Shown: positions 5,848-63,168 of the stretch, in pieces
Position numbering within the stretch: position 1 is the stretch's first letter
Layout: the number at the start of each line of letters is the position of its first letter
Made by a program: the position numbers and the translations under genes
Assembly (NCBI GenBank): GCA_903868145.1
Contig: CAIPTY010000060.1
Span: 1-64,000 of the forward strand
Direction of reading: 5' to 3'
Source: an uncultured Desulfuromonadales bacterium
GTDB lineage: Bacteria > Desulfobacterota > Desulfuromonadia > Geobacterales > Pseudopelobacteraceae
Length of the DNA stretch: 64,000 nucleotides
The notes under the pieces: model-generated
The model's database searches: none
What the model was told of the DNA's origin: nothing
What the model saw: the letters and a program-made list of their open reading frames with translations, nothing else

Positions 5848-6606
5848 TTACTCGATAATGGCGTATGAGCGATCGGGAAGGAAACGGGAACGCAATAGCC
5901 TGAAGTTCATCGATCCAAAGGACTCACGAAACGCGACAGTTTCACCGGGGAATTCTGGGCTGTTAAGCTCATCCATGGCTATAACAGAGCCCTTTACCAG
6001 ATATGGTTTGATTGCCTCAAGACATCTGAGTGTCGGTTCGTAGAGCTGCATGTCGAAGTATGCAAGTGAAATGATTGTCTCAGGGTGCTTACCGAGATAT
6101 TCTCCAATGGTAATGGTTGCATCACCTTTAACCAGCTCGAACTTCCTGACGTGCGACATGATATTTTCCTGCTGATGATACTCCAGCAGCGCCGAAAGAT
6201 GCTCCAGATAGTCCTCCGATACGGCATACTGGTTCAATTTGACCAGATCACAGGTGCCGTCTTGTTCCGACAGCGAAGGATAACCTTCGTAGGTATCAAA
6301 TCCTATGATCTTTCGGGTATAATTATACGGTTCGTAGGCTGCCCGAAATGACTCGAACAACGCCAGGTTCTGCCCCCACCAGACGCCGAACTCCATAACA
6401 ACGCCGGGCAGATGAGTGATCTGTTGATAGAGTTCGTTGACATATAAAAACTTCGCCACCACGGAGCTTCTCATGTAAAGCCCAAGATTCACCAGAAGAT
6501 GTTCCGGCGGAATAGGTGTTGTTTGAAACAGTTCAAGTAACTTTTCGCGCGCCGTTTTCTGCTTTTCCGATGCACGTGATTGCAGTTTATAATCGAGTTC
6601 GCCCAT
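5848..6606 (-). CDS. TylF/macrocin O-methyltransferase-like SAM methyltransferase
   Basis: 252 aa from ATG 6606. This start is preferred because AGGGAG lies 7 nt upstream, and it shortens the overlap with the preceding gene that a longer frame would give. SAM-binding motif I is VVMEFGVWWGQNLALFE near residue 65, followed by IIGFDTYEGYPS and LAYFDMQLYEPT, characteristic of TylF-like metal-dependent O-methyltransferases. The likely role is O-methylation of a sugar in the surface polysaccharide. ATG 6609 is an alternative start one codon earlier. Confidence 0.8.
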   Translation of the reverse strand: MGELDYKLQSRASEKQKTAREKLLELFQTTPIPPEHLLVNLGLYMRSSVVAKFLYVNELYQQITHLPGVVMEFGVWWGQNLALFESFRAAYEPYNYTRKIIGFDTYEGYPSLSEQDGTCDLVKLNQYAVSEDYLEHLSALLEYHQQENIMSHVRKFELVKGDATITIGEYLGKHPETIISLAYFDMQLYEPTLRCLEAIKPYLVKGSVIAMDELNSPEFPGETVAFRESFGSMNFRLLRSRFLPDRSYAIIE

Positions 6607-8243: not shown

Positions 8244-9302
8244 TTATGGTTGTGACGCGGCATTGATACTGTTATTGGATAGCTGATTTTTGACCATAGC
8301 CAAATGAGCGTCGATGTTCAGTTGAGTAACATACACGCCAAAATCGGAAGGCATTGAGTTATCGTGCATCCCCGAAACTTTTTTGGCAATCATGGTGCCT
8401 ATATGCGGGTAAAAGTGATGCAGGTCAACGTAATTGTCAAGGTTTGACGTCACGGAATTGATGTACATGAAATTGTATACCCCGCCGAACACGCTGATAA
8501 CATCCCGCAGCCACCTTTCATAGTCATCAAAATGATCTCTTATTAGCAGTCTGAAATATGGCTCACTCACAGGAGTAGTGAAGACAATAATCTTGATATC
8601 TTCATTCGCGTTTTTCACCGTATCAAGAACTTGCCGGTACCCAGCATTGTATCTGTAATTATTTATAACCTCTGAAAATTTTTCCATTTGGTTAATCCGT
8701 TCCCTATCGGCAACGGCTCTCGGAAGTGCAATACATTTTTTATTATTATTTCGATCATAGTAATATTTTTCAAATTTGTGTCGTATTGTTTTTATTGAAT
8801 ATTTCAATGTATCACGTGCGAGAAGGTGCCGAACCCTGTAAAAATTATCCCGATATTTGTCAGTATACTCCTTAAGGCTTGCCCTTCGATCAACCCCGTT
8901 AATGTTTGTGCCATAAAAATCAAGCCCGATAATTATTGTCTTTAATTGCCCGCGATTTACCTGACTGAAATATCGTATAAAATCGTTCAGATCTTCTGGA
9001 TATAACGAGGGGACAGAATAGTTGAACGCAGTGTGCCCCACAAAATCCGTCTGGCGGATATGCTCTGTTCTGCTACTCCCAATAACTAATGTGTCATAGG
9101 CGGCATGATCAAAGGTAATCCGATTCGTTTTCTGGAGGCGTGCATCAATATCCGGATAATCCATAAAATTTGTGTTTGGAATGCCAAAACACCACAACGG
9201 ATCAATGTAATAATTTACTGCCATGATTACGGTGCATCCCGTTAATAAAACCGTCACAAAAAAAAGTACGTGCGATTTATAGCCGGATCGTTTTCTCATC
9301 AT
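8244..9302 (-). CDS. Membrane-anchored SGNH/DltD-like protein
   Basis: 352 aa. One N-terminal membrane segment (about residues 11-31, VLFFVTVLLTGCTVIMAVNY) leads to an extracytoplasmic domain. GSSRTE near residue 74 resembles the GxSR nucleophile block of DltD/SGNH proteins, and DLHHFYPH near residue 294 supplies the DxxH block. The gene is visibly more AT-rich than its neighbours, suggesting later acquisition. It follows an AlgJ-like gene by 5 nt, so the MBOAT cassette has two SGNH partners. The function is inferred as periplasmic transfer or hydrolysis of an acyl group. Confidence 0.7.
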   Translation of the reverse strand: MMRKRSGYKSHVLFFVTVLLTGCTVIMAVNYYIDPLWCFGIPNTNFMDYPDIDARLQKTNRITFDHAAYDTLVIGSSRTEHIRQTDFVGHTAFNYSVPSLYPEDLNDFIRYFSQVNRGQLKTIIIGLDFYGTNINGVDRRASLKEYTDKYRDNFYRVRHLLARDTLKYSIKTIRHKFEKYYYDRNNNKKCIALPRAVADRERINQMEKFSEVINNYRYNAGYRQVLDTVKNANEDIKIIVFTTPVSEPYFRLLIRDHFDDYERWLRDVISVFGGVYNFMYINSVTSNLDNYVDLHHFYPHIGTMIAKKVSGMHDNSMPSDFGVYVTQLNIDAHLAMVKNQLSNNSINAASQP

Positions 9303-56452: not shown

Positions 56453-56468
56453 TGGCACAGCTCATGCA
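56453..56468 (+). promoter_or_regulatory. Sigma-54 promoter of the ANTAR regulator
   Basis: TGGCACAGCTCATGCA fits -24/-12 elements: GG at 56454-56455, exactly 10 nt, GC at 56466-56467. The predicted start is near 56479, 17 nt before the start codon. Confidence 0.7.
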
Positions 56469-56495: not shown

Positions 56496-57062
56496 ATGGA
56501 AAAAACCATACTTATTTGTGATGACGAACCGTTCACAAGAACGAGCTTGAGGGGTATGCTGCTTGATCTGGGGTTTGGAGAGGTTCTGGAGTGCGGGGAC
56601 GGGAAAATGGCAGTGGAAATGGCCTGTTCCAGCTTTCCGGACATGGCTATCCTGGGAGTTTCCATGCCCGGCATGGATGGAATAACTGTTGCCACCAAGA
56701 TCAGAGACAGGTTGAAAATCCCCATTGTGCTTCTGACAAGCGACTGTGATAAGGCGACCGTTAAACGGGCATTGGCTGGCGGTGTTGCCGCTTTTTTAAC
56801 CAAACCGCTTCGGAAGCAGGATCTGTTGCCGGCCATAGAATCCAGTCTAAAACACTCCGAAGAGATTGAAAACCTGAAAGAGAAAATCGAAGATCTACGT
56901 GAAAATATTGAAGACCGCAAGATAATTGAAAGAGCTAAAGGGCTCTTGATGGAAAAGAACCACTATTCAGAAGCTGCGGCCTATCGGAGCATTCAGAAGG
57001 CGGCGATGGACAAGCGAAAAACACTGCGACAGGTTGCTGACCTGATTTTGAAGGGCTGTTAG
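56496..57062 (+). CDS. Response regulator with ANTAR RNA-binding output domain
   Basis: 188 aa from ATG 56496 (GAGGG upstream). The receiver domain spans about 1-120: TILICDDEPFTRTSLRG, the phosphorylation Asp near residue 54 in FPDMAILGVSMPGMDG, where the usual Asp-Val/Leu is LGV, then VLLTSDCDK and AFLTKPLRKQDL. A coiled linker (ENLKEKIEDLRENIED) leads to ANTAR: IIERAKGLLMEKNHYSEAAA then YRSIQKAAMDKRKTLRQVAD. ANTAR proteins prevent terminator formation in leader RNA. In Geobacter sulfurreducens the GnfK/GnfR pair does this for nif genes; this is a likely counterpart, lacking an adjacent kinase. Confidence 0.9.
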   Translation: MEKTILICDDEPFTRTSLRGMLLDLGFGEVLECGDGKMAVEMACSSFPDMAILGVSMPGMDGITVATKIRDRLKIPIVLLTSDCDKATVKRALAGGVAAFLTKPLRKQDLLPAIESSLKHSEEIENLKEKIEDLRENIEDRKIIERAKGLLMEKNHYSEAAAYRSIQKAAMDKRKTLRQVADLILKGC

Positions 57063-57076
57063 GCCGCCACCTCCCC

Positions 57077-57982
57077 TCAATAGCCCCTTCCAAAAGGACT
57101 CGCAGCCACCAACAGATCAGTCACTGTCTCTATCTCGGCCATCACCTTGACATCCATCCTCTTTATCCAACGCTTTGGTATTGACTCCAAACCATAATAT
57201 GCGCCTGCAAGCATGCCGCATATAGCGCCGGTCGTATCAGCATCCGCCCCCTGATTTACTGTCCCGACCAGGCATTCTTCAAAACTCTTTCCCCGAAAAA
57301 ACCAGTGAAAGACTGTCTGCATTGTGTCAACGACATACCCTGTAGCCAGCCCCCGGTACGGCACGTAGTTAAACGTGGGGAGCCTGGACACCAGACCGTC
57401 AACATGGCGGCGCAGCCGACTTTTTTCAGCCCCGCACAGCGTCATCCGCAGGAGTTGGCCCAAACAGAGGCAGGCGGCGTCGGATACCTGGTTATTATGG
57501 GTGATGTGGGCCTGCTCGATCACATACTTCTTGAGCAGCTCTTCATCGGGAAATGAAAAGAGAACAGCTGGAAGGATGCGCATTGCGGCTCCGTTGCCTG
57601 CATCCCACTCATTTGGTGCTGTTTCCAGCGTACCGTGCAGCATGTAGGCGCGGATGCCTTTGCGACAGGTATCGCCGCAATCCACCGGGCGGGATTTTAG
57701 CCAGGCTGCAAAGTTGTCCGCTACCGCCTCCCGTGACCAGGCCTGGTTTTTTACAATGGCGCGGGCGATGCAGAGCGCCATTTCCGTGTCATCAGTGACC
57801 TGTCCCGGTTTCAGGCGCAGCCACCCACCGCCGATGATGTCCCGGAATGTGCCGTATTTGGCAGAAATCTCCGATGCAGTCATAAACTCGACCGTGGCGC
57901 CCAGCGCATCGCCGACCGCCATACCGATGAAAGCGGCCCGGGCATGGGCGCGGATTTCATCAAGATTGTACTGGTTGAACAT
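57077..57982 (-). CDS. draG: ADP-ribosylglycohydrolase (DraG-like)
   Basis: 301 aa. Family metal sites are complete: FIGMAVGDALGATVEF, QVTDDTEMALCIA near residue 60, and NQGADADTTGAICGMLAGAY near 245. DraG removes ADP-ribose from the NifH arginine to reactivate nitrogenase; the same family also acts on other proteins. Its place between the ANTAR regulator and nifB supports a nitrogenase role. No draT is visible. It converges on the regulator gene with a 14-nt gap. Confidence 0.83.
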   Translation of the reverse strand: MFNQYNLDEIRAHARAAFIGMAVGDALGATVEFMTASEISAKYGTFRDIIGGGWLRLKPGQVTDDTEMALCIARAIVKNQAWSREAVADNFAAWLKSRPVDCGDTCRKGIRAYMLHGTLETAPNEWDAGNGAAMRILPAVLFSFPDEELLKKYVIEQAHITHNNQVSDAACLCLGQLLRMTLCGAEKSRLRRHVDGLVSRLPTFNYVPYRGLATGYVVDTMQTVFHWFFRGKSFEECLVGTVNQGADADTTGAICGMLAGAYYGLESIPKRWIKRMDVKVMAEIETVTDLLVAASPFGRGY

Positions 57983-57993
57983 CAGGTAATCCT

Positions 57994-58163
57994 TTTACAC
58001 GGAGACACAGAGACATAGAGCGGTATGCAATTCATAAACCATCTGTTCTGCATAAATAATTTGCACATTGAATATGGATAAATGGGTATGAATGATTTTT
58101 TCGAATGCCCCTGTTTCCTGACACATCAGGTTTCCTCAGTGTCTCCGTGTCTCCGTGCTGAAA
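57994..58163. repeat. Inverted-repeat element 1 (CACGGAGACACAG type)
   Basis: Left arm ACACGGAGACACAGAGAC (57997-58014) and right arm GTGTCTCCGTGTCTCCGTG (58139-58157) are imperfect inverted repeats about 125 nt apart. Two similar elements lie at 61380 and 63066. It fills most of the gap upstream of nifB. Confidence 0.75.
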
Positions 58164-58173
58164 AATTTCCGAC

Positions 58174-58189
58174 TGGCACGTATTATGCC
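58174..58189 (+). promoter_or_regulatory. nifB: Sigma-54 promoter of nifB
   Basis: TGGCACGTATTATGCC: GG at 58175-58176, exactly 10 nt, GC at 58187-58188. Predicted start near 58200, immediately before the leader hairpin. Confidence 0.8.
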
Positions 58190-58200
58190 TAAAGGCTGTA

Positions 58201-58245
58201 GAAGGCAACGATGCCTTCAGGGTTAATTACTACAGAGGTTTTTTT
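58201..58245 (+). promoter_or_regulatory. nifB leader: hexaloop hairpin and T-tract, candidate ANTAR target
   Basis: GAAGGC (58201-58206), loop AACGAT, GCCTTC (58213-58218): a 6-bp perfect stem with a six-base loop having A at position 1 and G at position 4, the features of ANTAR-bound hairpins. A run of seven T (58239-58245) follows, after AGAGG, which could pair with CCTT of the hairpin's right arm in a competing terminator. A second hairpin is not obvious. Confidence 0.6.
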
Positions 58246-58265
58246 GTTTGGGAAGGAGTAGCAAC

Positions 58266-59135
58266 ATGGCAACTGCATGCGATATGAAGAACAAGATTCA
58301 GGGTCATCCCTGTTTTGGCGGCAATCATCACAAGAATGGCCGGATGCACCTGGCGGTGGCTCCAAAGTGCAACATCAAGTGCGGCTACTGCTCCCGCAAA
58401 CACGACTGCGCAAACGAATCCCGTCCCGGCGTGACCAGTCGTATCCTGACCCCGCAGGAGGCGATTGAAAAGGTGCGCGAGGTTATGGCCAGCCCCATCG
58501 CCGGACCGATCATCAAGGTGATAGGCATTGCAGGACCCGGTGATCCGCTTGCCAACGAAGAGACTTTTGAGACCTTTGCAATGGTGAAGAAAGAGTTCCC
58601 GCATCTGATGCTCTGCCTGAGCACCAACGGGCTGCTGCTGCCGGAGTCAATCGACAGGCTGTACGAACTGGGCCTCCACAGCCTGACGGTGACGATAAAC
58701 GCCATCGATCCGGAAGTCGGGGCGCAGATCTACCGCCATGTCATCTATCACGGCACACACTATACCGGTGTTGAAGGCGCAAAAATATTGATTGCCAACC
58801 AGTTTGAAGGTCTCAGGCAGGCCGGTGAGCTGGGGTTGACCATCAAGGTCAACACGGTTCTGACACCGGGAGTCAACGACAGCCAGATACCGCTGATAGC
58901 CGCACGGGTGAAAGAGCTGGGAGCCTTTGTCATGAATATCATGCCGATCATCCCCCAGGCGGAGTTGGCGCATATCACCCGTCCCAGCGAAGAATATCTG
59001 ACGGAGATCAGAAAGGCGAATGAGGGGATTATCGGCCAGTTTGCCCACTGCAAGCAGTGTCGTGCCGACGCAATCGGACTGATCGGCAAGGATCTGAACC
59101 TGACCATAGCCGAAGCGGCCTGCCCGACGCCATGA
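58266..59135 (+). CDS. nifB: Nitrogenase cofactor biosynthesis radical SAM protein, short form
   Basis: 289 aa from ATG 58266, AAGGAG 7 nt upstream. Radical-SAM cluster ligands Cys35, Cys39, Cys42 in APKCNIKCGYCSRKHDC, the NifB-specific N-terminal HPCFGGNHHKNGRMHLAVAP, GIAGPGDPLAN, and the end HCKQCRADAIGLIG. It makes NifB-co (8Fe-9S-C) for FeMo-co. The C-terminal NifX-like domain of many proteobacterial NifB is absent. The stop overlaps the next gene's start by 4 nt. Confidence 0.96.
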   Translation: MATACDMKNKIQGHPCFGGNHHKNGRMHLAVAPKCNIKCGYCSRKHDCANESRPGVTSRILTPQEAIEKVREVMASPIAGPIIKVIGIAGPGDPLANEETFETFAMVKKEFPHLMLCLSTNGLLLPESIDRLYELGLHSLTVTINAIDPEVGAQIYRHVIYHGTHYTGVEGAKILIANQFEGLRQAGELGLTIKVNTVLTPGVNDSQIPLIAARVKELGAFVMNIMPIIPQAELAHITRPSEEYLTEIRKANEGIIGQFAHCKQCRADAIGLIGKDLNLTIAEAACPTP

Positions 59136-59956
59136 CCATCCAGCCTTTTCTCAGGTGCGATATTCCGGCATTTATCTCTCTCGCTGCTCAAGAGGGGTGG
59201 ATTGCCGAAAGATGGGAGTTTGATTTCCTGCTGGCGACCATCCCGAAAGGTTGTTTCTGCGTACGGGATTCGGAAGGTAAGGGGATTGCGTTTGTGACTT
59301 CGCTTCGCCATGAGCGAAGCGCCTGGATCGGCAATCTGATTGTGGCGGCAGAGCGCCGTGGACAGCGGATAGGGGAAGGGTTGTTTGTCCGTGCCCTGGA
59401 GGCTTTGCGCTCTTCCGGTGCAGAGACCTTCTGGCTGACCGCCTCGAAACTGGGAAAAACGCTCTATGAAAAACATGGATTCAGCAGCATCGACACCATT
59501 ATGCGCTGGACCGGTGCTGGTCGGCAACGCTTTACGCCGCACCCTCAGGATGTGGGCGGTTCCGATGCGCGAACCCTGCACAACAGTTTTGATTGTCTGG
59601 CCTGGGGCGACAGCCGGTCTGTGTTGCTGAAAGCTGTTGCAGAGCGAGGGGAAGAGATAAGCGGCGCGACAGGATTCATGGTGGTTCAACCCTGCGGCGA
59701 TGCCTGGCAGTTAGGACCTTTTTCGGCAATGGACAGTGACATGGCGGAACAGCTTCTAGATAAAGCTCTTGGCACGGTGCCATCGGGTACCCCGATCTAC
59801 TGCGATGTGCCCGCCTCGAACCGGGCAGCCTTGAGGCTGTTCAACCGGCGTCGGATGCGGATTACCGGCAGCAACGAATTGATGTACGCCGGTCGGAAAC
59901 CTGACTATCGGCCCGAATATCTGTACGGATTGGCAACCATGGGAAGCTGCGGTTAG
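59132..59956 (+). CDS. GNAT acetyltransferase-family protein of the nif cluster
   Basis: 274 aa from ATG 59132 (ATGA overlap with nifB). N-terminal GNAT domain: GIAFVTSLRHERSAWIGNLI, then VAAERRGQRIGEGLFVRALE with the acetyl-CoA loop, and LYEKHGFSSIDTIMRWTG. The second half, with FSAMDSDMAEQLLDKAL and NRAALRLFNRRRM, looks like a degenerate second GNAT-fold domain. The substrate is unknown; tight packing between nifB and nifV suggests a role in cofactor synthesis or nitrogenase control. Confidence 0.75.
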   Translation: MTIQPFLRCDIPAFISLAAQEGWIAERWEFDFLLATIPKGCFCVRDSEGKGIAFVTSLRHERSAWIGNLIVAAERRGQRIGEGLFVRALEALRSSGAETFWLTASKLGKTLYEKHGFSSIDTIMRWTGAGRQRFTPHPQDVGGSDARTLHNSFDCLAWGDSRSVLLKAVAERGEEISGATGFMVVQPCGDAWQLGPFSAMDSDMAEQLLDKALGTVPSGTPIYCDVPASNRAALRLFNRRRMRITGSNELMYAGRKPDYRPEYLYGLATMGSCG

Positions 59957-59970
59957 ATCAGGGGGTACGT

Positions 59971-61116
59971 ATGACAACGGATAACAAAATAATTATCGAT
60001 GACACCACATTACGGGATGGAGAACAGACAGCCGGAGTGGTTTTTTCAAAGCGTGAAAAGATCACCATTGCCCGCATGCTCGATTGCATCGGTGTAGGGG
60101 AGATCGAGTGCGGCATACCGGCCATGGGGGGGGAGGAACAGGAGAGTATCCGGGCCCTGGTCGATCTGGGCTTGAACGCACGGCTGATTACCTGGAATCG
60201 CGCCCTGGTGCCTGAAATAGAGGCAAGTATCGCCTGCGGTGTGCAGGCGGTAGACATCTCGCTCTCGGTGTCCGACCAGATGATTGCCCACAAACTGCGC
60301 AAAAATCGCGATGCGGTCAAGGAACAGCTCAAGGTGGCGCTCGGTTTTGCCAAACAACACAACCTGTATGTTTCTGTGGGTGGCGAGGATGCCAGTCGGG
60401 CCGACATGGCCTTCCTGGTGGAACTGATGGAGATCACCCGTTCTCTGGGCGGTGATCGTTTTCGCTTCTGCGATACTCTGGGTATCATGGATCCCTTCAG
60501 CATGTTCGATAAGGTTACATTCCTCCGGAATGCCGTACCCGAGGTTGATATCGAGGTTCATACTCACAATGATCTGGGGATGGCCACCGCAAATGCCATT
60601 GCCGGGATCCGCGCCGGAGCCCGATTCGCCAACACCACCATCAACGGCCTGGGCGAGCGTGCCGGCAATGCGGCTCTCGAAGAGGTCGTCATGGGACTCA
60701 AGCACGCCTGCGGCATCGAGACCGGCATCGATACCCACCGCTTCCGGGAAATGTCGCTGTTTGTGGCCAAGGCATCAGACCGCCCTCTTTCCGTTTCCAA
60801 GCCGGTGGTCGGATCACGGGTTTTTGCCCATGAATCCGGTCTGCACGCAGACGGAGTCATCAAAGACCCTCACAACTATGAGGGGTTTGATCCGGCGGAG
60901 GTGGGACTGACCCGCAGCATCGTGATCGGCAAGCATTCCGGCACCAGCGGCCTGATTGAGCGCTACCGCAGTATGGGTATAGCCGTCGACCGCATACGGG
61001 CCGAGCCGATGCTCGAAAAAACGCGGGCAATGTCGTGCCGACGCAAGCGGGATCTGACAAACCGTGAATTGATGGGTATCTATCGTGAAAATAAAACGCT
61101 GCCCAGGGCAGCCTGA
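59971..61116 (+). CDS. nifV: Homocitrate synthase
   Basis: 381 aa, usual NifV length. IIDDTTLRDGEQTAGVVFSK carries the metal- and substrate-binding start of the DRE-TIM family; IEVHTHNDLGMATANAIAGI holds the HxH metal site and GLGERAGNAALEEVVMGL the second signature. The C-terminal part RVFAHESGLHADGVIKDP is typical. It condenses acetyl-CoA and 2-oxoglutarate to homocitrate for FeMo-co. Confidence 0.95.
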   Translation: MTTDNKIIIDDTTLRDGEQTAGVVFSKREKITIARMLDCIGVGEIECGIPAMGGEEQESIRALVDLGLNARLITWNRALVPEIEASIACGVQAVDISLSVSDQMIAHKLRKNRDAVKEQLKVALGFAKQHNLYVSVGGEDASRADMAFLVELMEITRSLGGDRFRFCDTLGIMDPFSMFDKVTFLRNAVPEVDIEVHTHNDLGMATANAIAGIRAGARFANTTINGLGERAGNAALEEVVMGLKHACGIETGIDTHRFREMSLFVAKASDRPLSVSKPVVGSRVFAHESGLHADGVIKDPHNYEGFDPAEVGLTRSIVIGKHSGTSGLIERYRSMGIAVDRIRAEPMLEKTRAMSCRRKRDLTNRELMGIYRENKTLPRAA

Positions 61117-61379: not shown

Positions 61380-61490
61380 CACCGCAGAGGCACAGATAAC
61401 ACGGAGTAAAACAATAAAGATTTTGGGGTTCCCGCAAAGAACCGGATGATTTTTATTTTCTCTGTGCCCTCTGTGCCTCTGTGTTTACCA
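61380..61490. repeat. Inverted-repeat element 2 (CAGAGGCACAGA type)
   Basis: Left arm CGCAGAGGCACAGATAACAC (61383-61402) and right arm TCTCTGTGCC then CTCTGTGCCTCTGTG (61459-61483) are inverted repeats about 60 nt apart. It sits inside the operon between the Cys-tail gene and the next gene. Confidence 0.75.
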
Positions 61491-61952: not shown

Positions 61953-61968
61953 TGGCACGACATGTGCT
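61953..61968 (+). promoter_or_regulatory. nifH: Sigma-54 promoter of nifHD
   Basis: TTGGCACGACATGTGCTA: GG at 61954-61955, exactly 10 nt, GC at 61966-61967. Predicted start near 61979, giving a leader of about 200 nt to the nifH start. The AT-rich stretch upstream (61905-61950) would suit bending. This and the next two entries fill the 383-nt gap 61799-62181, which has no other gene. Confidence 0.85.
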
Positions 61969-62026
61969 ACAGCAGTAATTCAAACGGCATACCGTGCGAT
62001 TGAGTACATACCAGATTTGTTCAGGC

Positions 62027-62064
62027 AAAGGCGCCTCCACTAAAATGGGGCGCCTTTATGTTTT
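62027..62064 (+). terminator. Intrinsic terminator inside the nifH leader
   Basis: AAAGGCGCC (62027-62035) and GGCGCCTTT (62049-62057) form a 9-bp perfect stem, extendable by two pairs, followed by ATGTTTTG. It lies about 50-85 nt into the predicted transcript, before nifH, so transcription must pass it to express nifHD. Confidence 0.8.
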
Positions 62065-62139: not shown

Positions 62140-63051
<912 letters not shown>

Positions 63052-63065
63052 ATCAAAAAACAATT

Positions 63066-63168
63066 CACAACGGAGACACCGAGGAAGGCATTTAAAATTT
63101 ACTTTTGACCCATAATCAGCATGTAAGTTTTAGATTTTCTCCGTATCTCTGTGTCACCGTGGTGGATT
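63066..63168. repeat. Inverted-repeat element 3, inside the nifH-nifD operon
   Basis: Left arm CACAACGGAGACACCGAGG (63066-63084) and right arm CTCCGTATCTCTGTGTCACC then GTGGTG (63139-63164) are imperfect inverted repeats about 55 nt apart. It occupies nearly all of the 133-nt gap between nifH and nifD. Confidence 0.75.

Follow-up and report, generated by a model that had tools for sequence, protein, structure and literature searches.

The leader of nifB in an uncultured Desulfuromonadales bacterium carries a small hairpin directly behind the predicted transcription start, and the question it raises is whether this hairpin is part of a compact antitermination switch for nifB, as a preliminary description of the sequence had suggested. 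The window, that is, the whole stretch of 64,000 nucleotides analysed here, lies in a nitrogen-fixation region, and the closest matches of its NifB are records of Desulfuromonadales, Geobacteraceae, Geobacter and Desulfuromonadaceae. The order of the genes is REC-ANTAR regulator, DraG-like (opposite strand), nifB, GNAT, nifV-like and nifH (Table 1); the DraG-like ADP-ribosylglycohydrolase gene (57077-57982, minus strand) sits between the regulator gene and nifB. Gene order and overlap suggest that the GNAT and nifV-like genes (59132..61116) probably belong to the nifB unit. Inverted repeats of the CGGAGACACAGAG / CTCTGTGTCTCCG type occupy intergenic positions near several nif genes, at 57995-58160, 61385-61485 and 63070-63160 of the window.

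Table 1. Features of the nifB-nifH region, in positions of the window
Feature	Position	Strand	Basis
Candidate sigma-54 promoter of the ANTAR regulator gene, TGGCACAGCTCATGCA	56453..56468	+	10/12 consensus positions
REC-ANTAR response regulator, GnfR-like, phosphoacceptor position Gly54 (codon 56655-56657)	56496..57062	+	Pfam Response_reg and ANTAR over cut-off; residue alignment
nifB sigma-54 promoter, TGGCACGTATTATGCC	58174..58189	+	10/12 consensus; position conserved in relatives
P2-type hexaloop hairpin, 6-bp stem, loop AACGAT, from +2	58201..58218	+	Core GGC-AAYGRN-GCC kept in nifB leaders
Decayed intrinsic terminator, GCCTTC...AGAGG plus T7	58213..58245	+	-3.8 kcal/mol, probability 0.0
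nifB	58266..59135	+	Radical SAM; NifB-type relatives, identity up to 94%
GNAT gene	59132-59956	+	Pfam
nifV-like homocitrate synthase gene	59971-61116	+	Pfam
nifH sigma-54 promoter	61953..61968	+	10/12 consensus
Intact one-hexaloop nifH switch (predicted), AGGC-AAAGGC-GCCT overlapping terminator AAAGGCGCC...GGCGCCTTT plus T-rich tract	62023..62064	+	Terminator -20.1 kcal/mol
nifH	62182..63051	+	Pfam Fer4_NifH

The individual elements that had been described around the start of nifB were all recovered. The sigma-54 promoter has its GG at 58175-58176 and its GC at 58187-58188 in a TGGCAC context, which places +1 at about 58200, and the hairpin is formed by GAAGGC (58201-58206) and GCCTTC (58213-58218) around a six-base loop (58207-58212) that has both A1 and G4. 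AGAGG (58234-58238) and the T7 tract (58239-58245) follow, and the ANTAR regulator is indeed encoded 1.1 kb away, upstream of nifB. Among the 21 A1/G4 hexaloop hairpins of the window with a stem of at least 5 bp (7 on the plus and 14 on the minus strand), the nifB hairpin alone lies no more than 120 nt from a sigma-54-like site, and it alone has a T6 or longer tract within 60 nt downstream. Folded alone it reaches -9.1 kcal/mol, a stability equalled by 2 of 200 shuffles. RNAfold pairs loop A1 with U6, by which the loop would become a tetraloop. The stem of 6 bp is atypical, 3 bp being found in 44 of 64 leaders. An inverted repeat consisting of CTGTAG (58196-58201) and CTACAG (58231-58236) is probably due to chance (-12.1 kcal/mol, with 13 of 200 shuffles as good), and its fold would enclose the hairpin in a terminator-like structure only if transcripts begin upstream of +1.

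Rfam covariance models had no match at the gathering score in the window and, at E values up to 10, a single irrelevant one (58100-58119). A leave-one-out covariance model derived from 48 nifB leaders, with that of the window excluded, placed 58200-58248 at the top of 107.8 kb of this contig (23.7 bits, E 4e-4). Matches of this kind at 8705 of the window and at 19771 of L189 were judged to be chance, as no nif gene lies downstream of either; the third-ranked match is at 57553 of the window.

The NifB search yielded 56 loci in named genome contigs, and NifB places, weak ones included, were found in 74 of the 76 genomes of the window's family. Removal of records sharing the last 110 bases left 99 upstream records. 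A leader rule (hexaloop [GA]GC-A..G..-GC[CT] plus a T run), which imposes A1, G4 and two stem pairs, recognised 63 of them (60 distinct elements). By reading, 9 of the 36 others are true leaders, namely L037 (GGCAATGGAGTT), L044 (GACAATGAGGCC) and seven of genus g2, in which the hexaloop is present and the T run is too short or the rule fails otherwise; the remainder are 15 opposite-strand loci, 9 second nifB-like copies, one truncated locus and two remote organisms. The window's genome also has a second NifB-like copy (L132, G000:C58:17504-18337), 63% identical and with one in-frame TGA in the match, for which no hexaloop leader was found by this rule.

In the related nifB leaders, the core GGC-AAYGRN-GCC lies just downstream of the sigma-54 promoter. 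The alignment comprised 49 of the 60 elements, 11 being excluded as near-duplicates or longer-terminator leaders (L023, L034, L036, L042, L113, L117, L119, L124, L127, L128 and L129). The stem of the hexaloop hairpin (P2) is nearly invariant across it, and A2 of the loop as well as the outer G and C show no variation, although the rule left them free. In the 48 rows without the window, the terminator stem has 10 pairs, 91.0% of cells paired (43-52% with slid partners as a control), and 7 pairs with changes in both partners; its covariation score of 0.286 compares with 0.198 in shuffled alignments and was reached by 0 of 500 shuffles. With the window's row the figures are 87.3% paired, 4 pairs changed on both sides (132 of 500 shuffles as high) and a score of 0.237 (2 of 500), a decrease of which this row is not the sole cause, since MAFFT also moved a gap. 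For 54 of the 60 elements, no more than 1 of 100 single-base shuffles was as stable. Equilibrium folding from +1 to the third U was carried out on 64 leaders. These were the nifH and nifEN leaders of the window's genome and 62 nifB leaders, among which two pairs have an identical element. The shared arm was in the terminator with a probability above 0.9 in 60 of the 64, and below 0.5 only in the window's nifB (0.0) and in L010 (0.024).

A P2 arm in common with an intrinsic terminator was found in nifH, nifEN and most relatives, and not in the window's nifB. Its terminator is the weakest of the 60 elements, with -3.8 kcal/mol versus a median of -17.6. The right arm of the hairpin had been described as able to pair alternatively with AGAGG, giving mutually exclusive structures. 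This was not borne out, since the downstream alternative (-4.2 kcal/mol) is matched by 89 of 200 shuffles and, in equilibrium folding that ignores co-transcriptional kinetics, the hairpin forms with a probability of 1.0 and its right arm pairs downstream with a probability of 0.0. What stands of the proposed compact switch is a conserved ANTAR-type hexaloop, linked to a terminator in the relatives and with an ANTAR gene nearby; the weakness of the terminator among the 60 leaders makes a working antitermination switch at 58200-58245 unlikely. With this terminator and a lengthened hairpin, the leader should be read through by default. We therefore lean, if only slightly, towards the view that the nifB hairpin of the window corresponds to the P2 hexaloop in an ANTAR-type antitermination switch that has become unlocked here, the nifH and nifEN switches being kept. 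A point against an unlocked leader is the T7 tract, which is still present, and the terminator and Gly54 changes, seen in one assembly only, could be errors. The L010 element (5937-5984), with a decayed terminator of -5.9 kcal/mol and an Asp-bearing regulator, would be an independent unlocking of a second nifB leader.

A switch that still works at the window's nifB, where T7 and a 4-5-bp stem would terminate kinetically and the ANTAR protein would relieve this, seems unlikely to us. The T7 tract, promoter, hexaloop and ANTAR gene are all in place and the leave-one-out model still puts the locus first, but the terminator fold is no more stable than that of shuffles, has no share at equilibrium, and is preceded by a hairpin that forms earlier and is more stable. 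It is quite improbable that the hairpin now acts in this species as an ANTAR-independent 5'-terminal stabiliser of the nifB mRNA. Hairpins of this kind at the 5' end protect mRNA, and the stable stem from +2 leaves a single unpaired 5' base if +1 is 58200; however, A1, A2 and G4 of the hexaloop still match the regulated leaders, and such a role is compatible with an unlocked switch and not exclusive of it.

The motif GGCAANGRNGCC occurs at 64 sites genome-wide and at 29 in a reversed control, and the hexaloop word alone is unspecific. Only 3 of the 64 sites have a sigma-54 site of at least 9/12 within 130 nt, those of nifB, nifH and nifEN; 6 sites without a sigma-54 site also show a terminator-like fold of -7 or better. 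The nifEN motif (L188:4980) and gene (L188:5121-7880), which codes for a NifEN-like fusion of 919 residues named from its own sequence, are located 10 kb further along the contig. Both nifH and nifEN have one hexaloop, the nifEN terminator reaches -16.1 kcal/mol, and the terminator arm forms at equilibrium with probabilities of 0.993 (nifH) and 0.969 (nifEN). Across 64 loci of the window's genome and its relatives there are 125 motif sites, 91 of them accompanied by a sigma-54-like site of at least 8. The gene that follows these 91 is nifB (52), nifV (14), nifH (9), DraG (3), nifEN (2), nifX-like (1), etfB (1) or other/none (9); the share of nifB is inflated since most of these loci were fetched around nifB, some genomes appear twice, and the DraG and 'other' labels are provisional.

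Two stem-loops with a short linker were not found in the nifB leader of the window, whose hairpin begins at +2 and leaves no room for an upstream hexaloop (P1, defined as an A1/G4 loop on a stem of at least 4 bp, lying between +1 and P2). With the window's family, 64 leaders were counted, and P1 was detected in a single one of them, shuffles giving an expectation of 0.30. In the three other families of the order, 15 of the 29 leaders that could be evaluated have P1, against an expectation of 0.36. These counts exclude L118 from the window's family and 11 of the 40 leaders fetched from the others, and they place L014, from genome G102 labelled f3, with the window's family. The nifB mRNA of this family usually starts 5-15 nt upstream of P2: the distance is 15 nt or less in 50 of 64 leaders, so that there is no space for P1, and 42-83 nt in 14, among which 73 (L130) and 83 (L034) may result from picking the wrong promoter, an alternative placement for L034 giving 9. 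When the rule was relaxed to accept G as well as A at loop position 1, an upstream hairpin was found in 26 of the 40 other-family leaders, or 25 after dropping L240, whose 5' arm precedes +1. By eye, five more appear to have a short or variant P1 (L209, L225, L227, L228 and L239); L204, L240 and L241 are short leaders resembling that of the window. P1 covaries, with 24 cells changed on both sides versus 7.3 and a score of 0.545 versus 0.238 (0 of 500 shuffles), and 93.9% of its cells are paired, a fraction that is biased because the rows were selected for pairing. The P1-P2 linker measures 7-11 nt in those 25 leaders, which is covered by the 5-12 nt given for Enterococcus faecalis eut leaders in excerpts of PMC3369931. 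Tandem attenuators also occur before nifB in other families, as L206, L207, L209, L213, L214 and L219 have a second terminator with its own overlapping GGC-AARGGC hexaloop.

The regulator gene of the window is the one match of an ANTAR domain search in the 3.8-Mb assembly. Both domains of its product, receiver and ANTAR, score above the Pfam cut-off, and the protein aligns over its full length with Rv1626 and EutV. Arg142, Lys149 and Tyr164 are listed as RNA-contact residues of EutV in the excerpted text of PMC8934654, and their equivalents (Arg141, Lys148 and Tyr163) are kept; the phosphorylated Asp (Asp54 in EutV) is replaced by Gly54. In 50 aligned regulator rows, duplicates included, this position is Asp in 45, Gly in 3 (the window twice and L012) and a gap in 2; 29 of the 31 nifB-linked regulators have Asp. 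The two Gly regulators are the most diverged of these 31, with mean identities of 52.9% (L012) and, in second place, 69.9% (window) against 71.0-83.9% for the rest, and the NifB of the window is the second most conserved (89.0%) in the same comparison. The L012 regulator has Gln at the Arg141 position. A regulator lacking the phosphorylated Asp would be constitutively competent, otherwise controlled, or drifting. The losses of the Asp and of the terminator are not coupled in general, since in L012 the regulator has Gly although the nifB terminator is strong, and in L010 the terminator is decayed although the regulator has Asp. In the relatives, the regulator gene starts 1.6-2.2 kb before nifB in 27 of 31 cases, and a sigma-54 site of at least 9 lies within 160 nt of the start of the nifB-linked regulator gene in 28 of 31.

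Among 141 genomes, 121 have both NifB and ANTAR, 4 NifB only, 8 ANTAR only and 8 neither; the corresponding numbers in 103 better genomes are 95, 2, 5 and 1, a split that makes co-presence uninformative. G046 and G053, of one genus, keep nifB leaders with P1, P2 and a terminator (L217 and L218) and lack an ANTAR match, the best proteins found (29-32% identity) being apparently other response regulators; these leaders may have another regulator or be relics. Although these two genomes and the uninformative co-presence would suit attenuators run by a non-ANTAR factor, e.g., another RNA-binding protein or sigma-54 polymerase coupling, we consider this very improbable, as the A1/G4 loop and the covarying P1 with 7-11-nt linkers of other families fit an ANTAR target and GnfR reportedly acts on nif genes in G. 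sulfurreducens.

From the sequence features, predicted folds, conservation, covariation and genomic association, we infer ANTAR binding, termination and a nitrogen response of the leaders. In the intact version of the family, transcription of nifB by sigma-54 RNA polymerase would mostly begin 5-15 nt ahead of GGC-AAYGRN-GCC. The GCC arm would pair downstream and form an intrinsic terminator near +45 when no active regulator is present, while the GnfR-like ANTAR protein, whose own gene follows a predicted sigma-54 promoter, would bind the hexaloop and retain the GCC arm, so that transcription continues. In the window's species, the 6-pair P2 stem and the eroded 3' arm of the terminator would let the nifB RNA take the antiterminated fold unaided, in which case nifB control should be mainly at the promoter; nifH and nifEN of the same genome would retain switches with strong terminators. 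We propose only tentatively, at somewhat less than even chances, that nif control is family-wide by a minimal antiterminator, i.e., one ANTAR hexaloop that competes alone with the terminator, within 5-15 nt of the sigma-54 start at most nifB genes, and that the switch is being dismantled leader by leader, the nifB of the window having flipped to default-on and its Asp-less regulator evolving fast.

Ueki and Lovley are said to have described, in 2010, GnfL/GnfR antitermination of nif genes in Geobacter sulfurreducens. That system reportedly shares with the present one a REC-ANTAR regulator encoded among nif genes, sigma-54 promoters of nif genes and terminators within leaders; the window, for its part, shows a single hexaloop, a decayed terminator and Gly54 in the regulator. 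That nif genes can be under ANTAR control is already known, from what is reported for Geobacter and from a prediction in print for Pelobacter, and the new parts are the one-hexaloop form and the unlocked nifB copy. In the portions available of the respective papers, gnfR is named as a nitrogen fixation response regulator (PMC7962754), an RpoN promoter is demonstrated for nifEN (PMC2725144), ANTAR RNAs are tied to nitrogen use in Geobacter, and Ramesh 2012 predicts ANTAR elements for three Pelobacter carbinolicus nitrogenase units (PMC3369931). The EutV/eut dual-hairpin antiterminator, as presented in excerpts of the latter, is alike in its A1/G4 hexaloop, short stem and P2 arm common to the terminator; it consists, however, of two hairpins, both needed and with an optimal linker, where the window's leader has one. 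A 2022 study in NAR (PMC8934654, excerpts) reduces the minimal ANTAR binding motif to a single hexaloop and anticipates sites that have just one, and states that the ANTAR dimer must touch both hexaloops to prevent termination, whereas here one seems to be enough for the nif leaders throughout a family. Among the matches listed from open-licence literature, no title or abstract dealt with one-hexaloop or decayed nif leaders.

A family with strong covarying terminators but a single hexaloop is a natural test of one-hexaloop sufficiency. A P2 so close to the start site gives the regulator little time for binding, which bears on how ANTAR proteins capture nascent RNA, and the genome of the window allows intact leaders to be compared with an unlocked one within a single regulon.
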